Shown here: in pieces, positions 39,487 to 63,058 of the stretch | Position numbering within the stretch: position 1 is the first letter of the stretch | How the letters are laid out: every line of letters starts with the position of its first letter | Assembly: GCA_022844205.1 (NCBI GenBank) | Contig: JALHMF010000010.1 | Coordinates: forward strand, 1-64,000 | Reading direction: 5' to 3' | DNA length: 64,000 bases | Source of the DNA: Xanthobacteraceae bacterium | GTDB lineage: Bacteria > Pseudomonadota > Alphaproteobacteria > Rhizobiales > Xanthobacteraceae | The notes under the pieces: generated by a model | What the model saw: the letters and a program-made list of their open reading frames with translations, nothing else | The model's database searches: none | What the model was told of the DNA's origin: nothing | Position numbers and translations under genes: made by a program

Positions 39487-42224
<2,738 letters not shown>

Positions 42225-50867: not shown

Positions 50868-50968
50868 TTCCTCATGCTGAGGAGCGCCGATAGGCGCGTC
50901 TCGAAGCATGAGGCCGCCTTCATCCTTCGAGACGCCGCGCTATCGCGCGGCTCCTCAGGATGAGGCGG
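50868..50968. repeat. Palindromic repeat of the CTCCTCAGGATGAGG family
   Basis: CCTCATGCTGAGGAGCGCC...GTCTCGAAGCATGAGG and CCTTCGAGACGCCGCG...GGCTCCTCAGGATGAGG, the reduced form without the two small hairpins. Confidence 0.85.
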
Positions 50969-58918: not shown

Positions 58919-59024
58919 TCGTCATCCCGGGCGCAGCGCAGCACGTTGTGATACCTGCAGACCCGGGATCGCAATCAATTAGACGATCCCGGCTCTCGCG
59001 ATGCTCGGCCGGGATGACGGCTAC
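58919..59024. repeat. Family B-type palindromic repeat
   Basis: TCGTCATCCCGGGCGCAGCG...GCAGACCCGGGATCGCAATC and AGACGATCCCGGCTCTCGCG...CTCGGCCGGGATGACGG form an inverted pair between two convergent genes. Confidence 0.8.
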
Positions 59025-62000
59025 TTGCGATCCTTCGGCTCGCCATACCCGCCCGCCGTCGGCGTTCGGATGATGACCGCTTCGCCCGCTTCCAGCACGG
59101 TCTGATCGCAGCCTTGCAATCTCTCGATGCGGCCGTCCTTGCGGCGGACGGAATTCTCGCCGACCTCGCCATTGCCGCCACCCGCCAGACCGAATGGAGG
59201 AACGCGGCGGTGACCGGAGAGAATCGCGCAGTCCATTCTTTCGAGAAAACGGATACGGCGCAAAATGCCATCGCCCGCTTTCCATTTTCCGCGTCCGCCG
59301 GAACCTTTGCGGATATGAAAATCCTCTAGCAGCACCGGGAAGCGGAACTCCAAAATTTCCGGGTCTGTCAGGCGTGTGTTGGTCATATGCGTGTGCACGG
59401 CATCGGTGCCGTCGAAATCCGGACCGGCGGGCGAGCCGGAGCAGATCGTTTCGTAATACTGGTAGCGGTCGTTTCCGAAGGTGAGGTTGTTCATGGTGCC
59501 CTGCGCGGCGGCGAGCGCGTTGAGGGCGCCGAACAGCGTGTCGGTGACGGCCTGCGAGGTTTCGACATTGCCCGCGACGACGGCGGCCGGATATTCCGGC
59601 GATAGCAGGGACTTCTTTGGAAGGACAATGTGTATCGGCCGCAGGCAGCCCGCATTCATCGGGATGTCATCGTCCACCATCATGCGGAACACATAGAGCA
59701 CCGCGGCACGGGTAACGGGTGCGGGCGCGTTGAAATTGGTCGGCTGCTGCGGGCTGGTGCCGGTGAAATCGACGGTGGCTTCACGCTTCTTTTTATTGAC
59801 CGAGATTTTGACTTGGATCCGGGTGCCCTGATCCATCTCGTAGGAAAATTCCGCGTCGTGCAAACGATCCAGGACGCGGCGCACGGATTCCGCGGCGTTG
59901 TCCTGCACATGATTCATGTAGGCGCGCACGACCTTCAGGCCAAAACCGGAAAGCATCTTGCGAAGTTCAAGCACGCCCTTCTCGTTGGCGGCGATCTGGG
60001 CCTTCAGGTCGTTCACGTTCTGCGTGAGATTGCGGACGGGATATTTGCCGCCGGTCAGCAGCGCGCTCAATTCCGGTTCGCGAAATTTACCGCGATCGAC
60101 CAATTTGAAATTATCGATATAGACGCCTTCCTGCTCGATGTGGGTCGCGTGCGGCGACATGGAGCCGGGCGAAATGCCGCCGATATCTGCGTGGTGACCG
60201 CGCGAGGCGACCCAGAAGAGAATTTGCGAATTGTTGTTCTTGCGCCCCCTCCCTTTCCCTCCCCCGCGAGCGGGGGAGGGCAGGGTGAGGGAAGCGAACA
60301 CGGGCGTGCAGACTGTAATATCGGGAAGATGCGTGCCGCCGTTATAGGGAGCGTTCAGCGCATAGACGTCGCCGGGTTTAATTTTCCCTTTGTTTTCCCG
60401 CAGCACGGTCTCGACGGACTTGTCCATCGAGCCGAGATGCACCGGCATGTGCGGCGCGTTGGCAACGAGGTTGCCGTCCGCGTCGAACACGGCGCAGGAG
60501 AAGTCGAGCCGCTCCTTGATGTTCACCGAATAGGCGGTGTTCTGCAGGGTGACCCCCATCTGCTCGGCGATCGACATGAAGAGATTGTTGAAGACCTCGA
60601 GCATCACCGGGTCGGCCTTGGTGCCGACGGCACGCTTGCGGGCGAGCGTCTTGTAGCGCGTGAGCGCCAGATGATTTTTGGGCGTCACCTTCGCGCGCCA
60701 GCCATTTTCGATCACGACCGTCTGGTTCGGCTCGATCAGCAGGGCTGGGCCGGTGACCGTATGGCCAGGCTTCAACTGGTCGCGGGTGAAGACGGGGGCG
60801 GCGTGGAATTTTCCGCTGGAAAAAAATCTCGTCCTGCGGCGCGGCTTCGGCGGCTTCGATGTTCCCGAAGGGAATTTCTTTTCTTCAAATTTCGCCCCGC
60901 CGCCGATGGCTTCGACGGAGAGGGCTTCCAGTGTGACGCCGCGTTCCTTGTCGGAGAAACCAAACCGCTCGCGGTGGTTGGCGTGAAACCAGAGTTTGAT
61001 GTTGCTGGCCCCCCTGAAGTGGCCGAAAATCCTGCCGCCCACCCGCAGCGGATTTGACGGAGGAAAGTCCTGATGGCCGGCTTTGCGGGCCGCTTTCAGT
61101 TTTTCGTAACGGCGGACGGATTCCTCGTAATCGAAACCCGGTGCGTATTCCGCGGCATCGACCGGTAGCGTGGTGTCGGTGCCGCTGTAGCGGGTATGCG
61201 CTTTCACGATGAAGCGGATATCGTTCGTGTCGACGCCTTGCCGCAGCAATTCAGCCTGCGCTTCCTGCGCAAGCTCCTCGACCATCTTCACGAGCAGCGC
61301 GTCTTTCTCACGCTCCTGGGCGACTTCCGGCAATGTCATCTCGACCGCGCGCTGGCGCGTGGCGCTGATGTCGGCGAGGCCCATGCCATAAGCGGAAAGA
61401 AGCCCCGAAAGTGGATGGATCAGCACGCTCTTCATGCCGAGCGCGTCAGCGACCAGACATGCGTGCTGGCCGCCGGCGCCGCCGAAACAGTTCAGCGCAT
61501 AGCGCGTCACGTCATAGCCGCGCGCGACGGAGATTTTCTTGATCGCATTCGCCATGTTCTCCACGGCGATGTGGATGAAGCCGTCGGCGACTTGCTCCGG
61601 CCGCTTGCCGATCTTTTTTGCGAGGGCCGCGAAAGCGGTGTGGACTGCTTTCGCGTCGATTGGCTGGTTTTGCTTGGAGCCGAAAATCTTCGGGAAGAAA
61701 TCCGGGATCAGCTTTCCCGCCATCACGTTCGCATCGGTCACGGTCAGCGGCCCGTTGCGGCGGTAGCATTTGGGACCGGGATCGGCGCCCGCCGAGTCCG
61801 GCCCGACGCGGAAACGAGAACCGTCGAAATGCAGGATCGATCCGCCGCCGGCCGCGACCGTGTGAATGAGCATCATCGGTGCGTGCATGCGGACACCCGC
61901 GACTTCGGTTTCGAACGCGCGCTCATACTCGCCGTTGAAGTGTGCGACATCGGTGGACGTGCCGCCCATATCGAAGCCGATGATCCTGTCGAACCCGGCT

Positions 62001-63058
62001 TCGCTCCCGGTCTGCACCATGCCCACGACGCCACCGGCGGGGCCGGAGAGGATCGCGTCCTTGCCTTGAAAAAAATCGGCGGAGGTGAGGCCGCCGGAGG
62101 ACATCATGAACATCAGCCGCGCAGCAGATTGAATTTTATCTTCACCTCCCCCTGCAAGGGGGAGGTCGGCGCGTAGCGCCGGGTGGGGGTCATTTTCATT
62201 GCCTGATGAATTCTCGGATGCTTTTGCCCCCCTCCCTCCTCCCCCTGCAAGGGGGAGGTCGGCGCGTAGCGCCGGGTGGGGGTCATTTTCATTGCCTGAT
62301 GAATTCTCGGATGCTTTTGCCCCCCTCCCTCCTCCCCCTTGCAGGGGGAGGGAGGAAGAAATTGCGAGTTCTTCCCCCACCTGCGCCACATAACGCCGCA
62401 GGATTGGCGACAGATACGCGTCCACAACGGTCGTGTCGCCGCGGCCGACAAGCTTGATCAGCGGCGAGACTTCATGGCTGACGGAAACCTGCGCGAAGTG
62501 CATCTCGCGCGCGAGCTTCGCGACCTGCTGCTCATGCGCGGGATAGCGATAGCCGTGCATGAACAGGATCGCGATTGCCTCGATGCCGTCCTGCTTCAGC
62601 GTTTCCAGTTCGCGGGCAACCGCCGCGAGATCGGGGGCCTGCTCGACGGTGCCGTCGGCGCGCACGCGCTCATCGATTTCAACCGCGCGCTCATAGAGCA
62701 TTTCCGGTTTGATGATCTGCTTCGCAAAAATCTTCGGGCGCGCCTGATAGCCGATCTTGAGTGCGTCGCGGAAGCCCTTGGTGACGAGGAGGGCGGTGCG
62801 TTCGCCTTTTCGTTCGAGTAGCGCGTTGGTGGCGACGGTGGTGCCCATTTTCACAGCACCAATTTTGTTTTCAGGGATGCGAGCGCCGGGCGCGAGGCCG
62901 AGACATTCGCGGATGCCGGCGATGGCGGCATCGCGGTAGGCGCCGGGATTTTCCGACAATAATTTGCGCGCGATCAGTTCGCCATCCGGTTTGCGCGCGA
63001 TCACGTCGGTGAACGTGCCGCCGCGGTCGATCCAGAAATCCCAGCGATCCTTGCCCAT
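59021..63058 (-). CDS. Fused hydantoinase/5-oxoprolinase (HyuA-HyuB), with in-frame repeat insertions
   Basis: 1345 residues, versus about 1200-1290 for ATP-dependent 5-oxoprolinases. HyuA half (1 to about 760) starts [13 protein letters not shown] and has [39 protein letters not shown] and [16 protein letters not shown]; HyuB half (about 790-1345) has [18 protein letters not shown] and [18 protein letters not shown]. Opens 5-oxoproline or hydantoins using ATP. Residues about 235-305 and 918-940 are translated palindromic repeats; the frame survives both. Divergent from a MarR-like gene and TRAP transporter that probably import its substrate. Activity with these insertions is uncertain. Confidence 0.9.
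60240..60303. repeat. CCCTCCCC-type element inside the HyuB half
   Basis: Hairpin CCCTCCCCC (60257-60265) and GGGGGAGGG (60272-60280) with CCCTCCCTTTC and CAGGGTGAGGG flanks. In the protein it inserts a stretch reading [16 protein letters not shown] between conserved VCTPVF and [11 protein letters not shown]. Confidence 0.88.
62143..62352. repeat. Two identical 93-bp tandem units inside the HyuA half
   Basis: Units 62151-62243 and 62244-62336 read identical. Each carries CCTGCAAGGGGGAGG, a GGCGCGTAGCGCC hairpin, GGTGGGGGTCATTTTC and a run of CCCCCCTCCCTCC. A partial inverted piece (CTTGCAGGGGGAGGGAGG) follows. 93 is 31 codons, so the frame is kept; flanks are conserved HyuA sequence ending near ISSS and resuming at LMFMMSSGG. 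Confidence 0.93.

Follow-up and report, generated by a model that had tools for sequence, protein, structure and literature searches.

The Rickettsia palindromic elements (RPEs), repeats of 100-150 bp that lie in frame in unrelated genes (PMC3767692), are, with the coding palindromes of Wolbachia, described as typically occupying non-structured segments (PMC2996958). Different RPE groups occur near one another in one gene, for which either insertion hotspots or a common origin has been offered, and an ATGAC motif belongs to RPE-4/6/7 (PMC3767692). A second body of work concerns the GTAG and CGTC REPs, short palindromes found mostly as inverted dimers; the CGTC type is common in alphaproteobacteria and is described by a terminal CGTC (or TGTC, CCTC) tag, an 8-9 bp stem starting from AT, a 4-5 nt loop and a CCA tail (PMC3733652). 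Intragenic REPs were catalogued in 2013, including CGTC cases in R. conorii, E. litoralis and S. alaskensis; some genes are hit twice, two species of Xanthomonas have recB hit at approximately one site, and flexible loops or linkers were suggested as neutral places for REPs (PMC3733652). The view taken in the earlier note, that protein-coding palindromic insertions are known from Rickettsia and have not been described for the present group, was too narrow, since these intragenic CGTC REPs are from alphaproteobacteria (PMC3733652).

REPINs are inverted doublets with a spacer that can be folded as one hairpin and that occasionally form near-identical tandem arrays (PMC3116915), Br-REP1 and Br-REP2 are repetitive palindromes of Bradyrhizobium described from intergenic regions (PMC5082802), and PARCELs are palindromic DNA coding for tandem protein repeats, with amphipathic domains and often in membrane proteins (PMC2996958).

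The repeat studied here, which we call the CCTCCCC element, resembles the RPEs in behaviour and the REPINs in layout. As with the RPEs, its palindromes lie in frame in unrelated conserved genes (for HyuAB, GlyS, a DUF255 protein and a GT87 glycosyltransferase) and are absent from homologues; the hosts, however, are Hyphomicrobiales rather than intracellular Rickettsiales, and here one loop is occupied in several genera by two superfamilies that are unrelated. With the REPINs it shares the layout of two inverted palindromes around a spacer, dispersed in many copies, but it is not a REPIN by the transposase test: PF01797 (Y1_Tnp, the RAYT domain), present in 10 of the 41 genomes searched, has no match in this genome (98% complete), so that no cognate RAYT gene or other mover was identified there, and the central stretch of the spacer has no significant further copy in the genome. 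Nor does it agree with the description of the CGTC REPs, CCTCCCCCTGCAAGGGGGAGG having on inspection neither the AT start of the stem nor the CCA tail. The Br-REP1 and Br-REP2 consensus sequences likewise differ from it by inspection, and PARCELs are not presented as insertions into loops of conserved enzymes. Intragenic REPs and the RPEs of Rickettsia are already known; the re-use of loops by unrelated repeats in Hyphomicrobiales may be new. Searches of open-licence PMC papers yielded no mention of the CCTCCCC family or its doublets, nor any description of the same enzyme loops being used by unrelated repeats in Hyphomicrobiales, which hints weakly at novelty.

The repeat array in a fused hyuA-hyuB gene

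The window (the whole stretch of 64,000 nucleotides analysed here) contains a hyuA-hyuB fusion whose single frame is open from end to end in the list of open reading frames (Table 1). Hydant_A_N, Hydantoinase_A, Hydant_A_C and Hydantoinase_B all score above the Pfam cut-offs in its product, which therefore has the domains that mark a HyuA/HyuB oxoprolinase-hydantoinase (Hydant_A_N, Hydantoinase_A and Hydantoinase_B). Between Hydant_A_N (residues 8-186) and Hydantoinase_A (310-566) lies an in-frame array of the layout P-S-P-S-P', where P is the palindrome CCTCCCCCTGCAAGGGGGAGG and S a 72-nt spacer. The two 93-nt copies, 62145-62237 and 62238-62330, are 100% identical, the exact repeat at a distance of 93 is 102 nt long, and TRF gives 62145-62351 with a period of 93 and 2.2 copies as the top score among five rows for the window; the perfect tandem that the earlier note had placed at 62143-62352 in the HyuA half was right to within 2 bases. 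Folded as single-stranded DNA, the array reaches -75.2 kcal/mol; its shuffles average -38.9 (z = -10.9), and none of 200 is as stable.

Table 1. Coordinates of the hyuAB gene, its repeat array and filled sites, and two further host genes (window positions unless a contig is named)
Feature	Location	Strand	Remarks
hyuA-hyuB fusion, 5-oxoprolinase/hydantoinase type	59021..63058	-	1345 aa; ORF list and Pfam
Palindrome P, copy 1 (CCTCCCCCTGCAAGGGGGAGG)	62145..62165	.	repeat and motif search
Spacer S (72 nt), copy 1	62166..62237	.	inner hairpin, GGGTGGGGGTC, central stretch, CCCCTCCCT
Palindrome P, copy 2	62238..62258	.	identical to copy 1; repeat search, TRF
Spacer S, copy 2	62259..62330	.	identical to copy 1; repeat search, TRF
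Inverse palindrome P'	62331..62351	.	closes the doublet; 18/21 bases like P
Site A linker, residues 232-314, 83 aa	62117..62365	-	114-sequence alignment, window included
Site B, 53-residue segment	61001..61159	-	7-9 residues in most of 113 sequences; alignment
Site C, second CCTCCCC-type insert, HyuB half, residues 922-945, 24 aa	60224..60295	-	alignment
GT87 glycosyltransferase gene, in-frame CCTCCCC doublet	40878..42221	+	palindromes 41310-41328, 41416-41434
glyS gene (L208)	G000:C1:497408-499759		CCTCCCC element and second insert

The insertion at site A is clean. In an alignment of HyuAB comprising 114 distinct sequences (that of the window, 37 taken from other genomes and 76 from named records, after four duplicate loci were dropped and a fragment, L116 of G034, was omitted), the segment between RRYVAxVxEEL and LMFMMSSGG is 83 residues long in the window, where L083/G027, L132 and L141, its sisters in the tree, have only the eight residues DAKNSGAR; the same-genus genome G002 also has eight. 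The clean, in-frame insertion of some 70 residues proposed from the DNA is thus borne out by the homologues, with a net gain of 75 codons. The next rows of the tree, G003 and L118, carry a TCATCC-type insert at the same site. The possibility that the segment is conserved domain sequence was rejected on the eight residues of the near relatives, and an intein was rejected by eye on size and content.

In an AlphaFold2 model of the HyuA part, made with 55 sequences over 810 residues and with a mean pLDDT of 77, residues 238-309 have a pLDDT below 50 and lie between a helix at 213-230 and a strand at 314-318. The insert is accordingly predicted to be disordered, and its site is plausibly a surface loop. 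The nearest solved folds of this part are chains of acetone and acetophenone carboxylase, N-methylhydantoinase and caprolactamase, among them 6yra, which is titled caprolactamase and has a chain named 5-oxoprolinase.

Two further sites of the same gene are enlarged. The stem of the site B segment is not above those of same-gene controls, and no second copy of the segment was found in this genome. The site C insert, of which the item in the earlier note makes no mention, contains a palindrome at 60258-60279, most of the 114 sequences having six residues at this place, and its peptide resembles those of L132, G016 and L119 there. Among the 50 of 82 palindrome sites listed, a variant palindrome, CCTCCCCCGCGAGCGGGGGAGG, occurs at G000:C2:306516-306537 and at 60258-60279 of the window, both intragenic (in the DUF255 protein and HyuAB, respectively).

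That three sites of one gene are enlarged together could mean relaxed constraint, and hence a hyuAB that is decaying as a pseudogene in this lineage, with inserts that are open by chance; the filled homologues of G016 and G025 each have one stop within the listed match, though their reported frames are of 1308 and 1310 aa. We regard such decay as very unlikely in view of the 1345 open codons, the four Pfam domains that pass their cut-offs, and the open frames of 1318 and 1313 aa in the filled homologues of G036 and G014. The invariant HyuA columns show merely that there is no change in the window, because its row is included in the alignment by construction.

The CCTCCCC element and the origin of the array

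The palindrome CCTCCCC N0-14 GGGGAGG has seven matches in the window (in 100 shuffles, mean 0 and largest 0) and 82 sites in the whole genome (3.17 Mb in 17 contigs), where the reversed-pattern control has none. It is present in 50 of 61 genomes, namely this one and 60 relatives, with up to 147 sites in each; the reversed control gives 0-6 matches across the 61, and G022 and G053 have more control than real matches. Partial copies of the 93-bp unit lie at other places in the genome, and many CCTCCCC copies are inverted doublets in which the palindrome is followed by an inner hairpin with GGGTGGGGGTC at its end, then by a variable middle, GACCCCC... and the inverse palindrome. With the strict pattern 22 doublets are measurable: the window array, at 207 bp, has the form of such a doublet plus an additional P-S unit, and the other 21 measure 99-155 bp.

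These elements bear no sign of adaptation to coding. On average 2.7 of six frames are open in them, against 3.2 in neighbourhood segments, much of which is coding DNA; only three of the 22 palindrome-to-palindrome spans are divisible by three. Having fewer open frames than the control, the elements are not coding-adapted, and insertion is thus probably blind to frame. The merged elements referred to below number 54, a part of the total that was drawn from 50 fetched stretches (50 of the 82 palindrome sites were listed, and further elements were taken from matches to the 93-bp unit) and three parts of the window.

At one locus (L230:1191-1388), a perfect direct repeat of 25 bp, GGAGCAGGCGGCATGAGGGCTCCAT, lies on either side of a doublet and somewhat away from it, with the copies 173 bp apart; this may be a target duplication, an older duplication or an artefact. 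The window also has one copy of the TCATCC-type repeat, at 50912-50965.

We consider it very probable that a doublet inserted into the HyuA loop with the frame kept and the enzyme probably not destroyed. A non-autonomous, hairpin-forming CCTCCCC repeat, as an inverted doublet P-S-P' of about 114 bp, would have entered the loop that runs from the end helix of the HyuA N-terminal part to the first strand of Hydantoinase_A. With an open frame and residues predicted to be disordered, the enzyme would probably have escaped destruction and the copy would have survived. One P-S unit would then have been gained, most likely by slippage or unequal exchange between P and P', and this duplication would have kept the frame because P and P' lie 93 bp, that is 31 codons, apart. 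More generally, blind insertion combined with a survival filter, whereby only in-frame, stop-free copies within tolerant loops would persist, fits best, because there is no open-frame bias among the elements and the HyuA insert is predicted to be disordered.

The gain of a unit presupposes that both units exist in the organism, towards which we lean somewhat; the insertion itself holds with one unit or with two. It is quite conceivable, if less so, that the doublet insertion is real and the second 93-bp unit an assembly artefact, produced when contig ends overlapping in the hairpin were joined unmerged, as such an overlap at 62145-62330 would mimic a perfect tandem. The assembly has poly-G/poly-C junk in mid-doublet at two other places (C1 at about 521,040 and C9 at about 111,720); L209:2980-3270 shows junk with an N10 gap and L238:1100-1400 junk flanked by a duplicated copy of a 29-bp spacer, and among the 54 merged elements looked at the window array is the only perfect tandem. 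The array itself, however, is free of junk and N across 62145-62351, P and P' are good slippage partners, and REPIN arrays of near-identical tandem units have been described in Pseudomonas fluorescens SBW25 (PMC3116915). The frame cannot discriminate here, because a change of 93 bp keeps it in either case. Of the recent amplification that the earlier note read from the identity of the units, the identity stands (100%); the perfect doubling may be a real amplification or an assembly slip.

Filling of three HyuAB sites across Hyphomicrobiales

Extra segments of at least 10 residues are found almost only at sites A, B and C of the HyuAB alignment, with seven rows having them elsewhere (at window residues 484, 578, 717 and 721). 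With the window included, site A has at least 20 residues in 41 of the 108 sequences with data and only 5-13 in about half of them, site B at least 32 in 10 of 113, and site C at least 14 in 20 of 114. When the longest perfect stem of the insert DNA was compared with those of 40 control segments from the same gene, it exceeded all 40 in 12 of 41 inserts at A, four of 10 at B and nine of 20 at C, so that 29 of the 41 long site-A inserts do not beat all of their controls. By motif, 13 inserts at site A are CCTCCCC-type, eight ATCTCCCC-type and three TCATCC-type, with 17 fitting none; site B has five CCTCCCC, three TCATCC and two fitting none; and site C has six CCTCCCC, four ATCTCCCC, one mixed, one CACCCTGAGGAG and eight fitting none, all of these classes being coarse, in that some Mesorhizobium inserts are counted as CCTCCCC and inserts that are likely to be related, for example that of L119, stay unclassed.

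The kinship of the inserts was assessed by blastn of 16 insert sequences, all against each other. The ATCTCCCC-type is weakly similar to the CCTCCCC-type (L138 against L126, G016 and the GlyS insert, E 0.0003-0.001) and may be a branch of it; the TCATCC repeats are linked to the CACCC repeats at E 0.001; and among the 16 inserts no link between the C-rich and TCATCC groups falls below E 0.2. Judged from these similarities, the site A loop is filled by at least two unrelated palindrome superfamilies in many Hyphomicrobiales, a count we put at two because blastn joins ATCTCCCC to CCTCCCC and TCATCC to CACCC. Sites B and C are also palindrome-filled in this order, and the hosts include several named isolates, for example of Mesorhizobium and Aminobacter. 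On a FastTree phylogeny of 106 of the 114 sequences, with insert columns excluded, a three-state label (short, palindromic or other) changes 23, 9 and 17 times at A, B and C, gains and losses being indistinguishable in these counts.

The fillers are themselves dispersed repeats. Each of 10 genomes gives 107-151 matches to the insert of Mesorhizobium helmanticense (L138), and the TCATCC-type insert of G035 has 12-73 in six of seven genomes and none in G004; these are matches on both strands and not copies, since the queries are near-palindromic and one copy may match twice. CCTCCCC palindromes are more numerous in the six genomes whose hyuAB has an insert of this type (65-115) than in the 32 without one (0-134; one-sided Mann-Whitney, p = 0.0005, kinship ignored); element-rich genomes without such an insert include G046 (134 palindromes), G017 (93) and G058 (89).

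Repeated filling of the same sites, which Methanosarcina and Bauldia enlarge with unrelated sequence, might be taken to mean that the inserts are selected as a functional disordered linker or interaction segment. We think this very improbable: the sequence, length and family of the insert vary between near relatives, about half of the 108 sequences are short at site A, and the filled genomes are the element-rich ones. The loops also grow by other routes, as indicated by the hairpin-free Methanosarcina and Bauldia inserts together with the 17 unclassed inserts and the 29 that fail the stem test; in Bauldia the stem test finds no hairpin at either site A or site C.

Coding tandem repeats of the RSAEGATGKQ type, with no hairpin in the stem test, occupy site C in Bauldia and a relative (L185 and L114 of G051), and HyuAB of the Methanosarcina type (L177, L179 and L196) enlarges site A with Glu/Lys-rich sequence that has no hairpins.

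Other host genes and the persistence of inserts

A Pfam scan of 20 chosen frames that cross an element (HyuAB apart, and long frames only) gave 16 with no Pfam family and one, chorismate synthase, whose domain begins only downstream of the element. The remaining three are real hosts, namely the beta subunit of glycyl-tRNA synthetase (GlyS), a protein with DUF255 and a glycosyltransferase of family GT87. The suggestion that the element can enter genes is thereby supported beyond HyuAB, and intragenic position with homologue support applies to five of the 54 merged elements, counting HyuAB twice and with the scan covering chosen longer frames.

Glycyl-tRNA synthetase is essential in bacteria. 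In GlyS the CCTCCCC element sits between QKCFVLR and LANKF; the protein has matches in all 41 genomes searched, most of which end near query residue 325 or start near 364. This first site is filled in three of 30 aligned sequences (L250 being partial), by CCTCCCC in this genome, by a TCATCC-type repeat in G019 and by a repeat like the CACCC type in G051. A second insert (residues 576-609, VIAGLDPAIH...MDARVKPGHD) has DNA with TGTCAT and ATCCA as in CGTC REPs, and G021 (L249) has a similar one. In the DUF255 protein there are 24 extra residues at the element; two of 23 other aligned sequences show an excess of 8-9 residues there, and the others no notable one. The GT87 place holds C-rich inserts in this genome and the same-genus G001 and TCGTCAT-type inserts in G016 and G006, the remaining seven of 11 sequences being shorter there. 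By inspection, the second GlyS insert (TGTCAT...ATCCA) and the GT87 inserts of G016 and G006 (TCGTCAT...) look CGTC REP-like, and the GT87 insert of G016 matches the second GlyS insert (blastn, E 1e-5). The GlyS and GT87 places, too, hold unrelated repeats in relatives.

A chance open frame as the sole explanation for the four genes was considered and rejected. The very stable predicted hairpin of the array also raises the thought that the insert is absent from the final protein, through ribosome skipping or removal at the RNA or protein level. This is highly improbable in our estimate, because the inserts are stop-free and in frame in HyuAB, GlyS, DUF255 and GT87 and skipping needs neither property, though the choice of long frames biases that test. 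On our main reading the HyuA insert would be translated and the activity of the enzyme tolerated.

We regard the re-use of loops as a stronger finding than the doubling in the window. On balance we favour the view that a few conserved-enzyme loops, including one in glycyl-tRNA synthetase, are standing landing places that would be filled, lost and refilled by unrelated hairpin superfamilies in Hyphomicrobiales. If true, this would be a multi-family counterpart, outside intracellular bacteria, of what is seen with the RPEs, and the tolerance of protein loops, not the kinship of the elements, would decide where coding palindromes persist. If confirmed, a partly cultivable order would offer a system for an old question from Rickettsia, the way in which working proteins gain peptide from selfish palindromes; with natural empty and filled states and unrelated fillers in close relatives, one could measure on natural orthologues how a filler affects folding and activity. 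It would also follow that Gly/Pro/Arg-rich linkers annotated in Hyphomicrobiales may represent repeats that are translated, and that hairpin doublets are exactly where assemblies can fail.

The peptide of the second GlyS insert also matches other places in G001, G003, G019 and G052.
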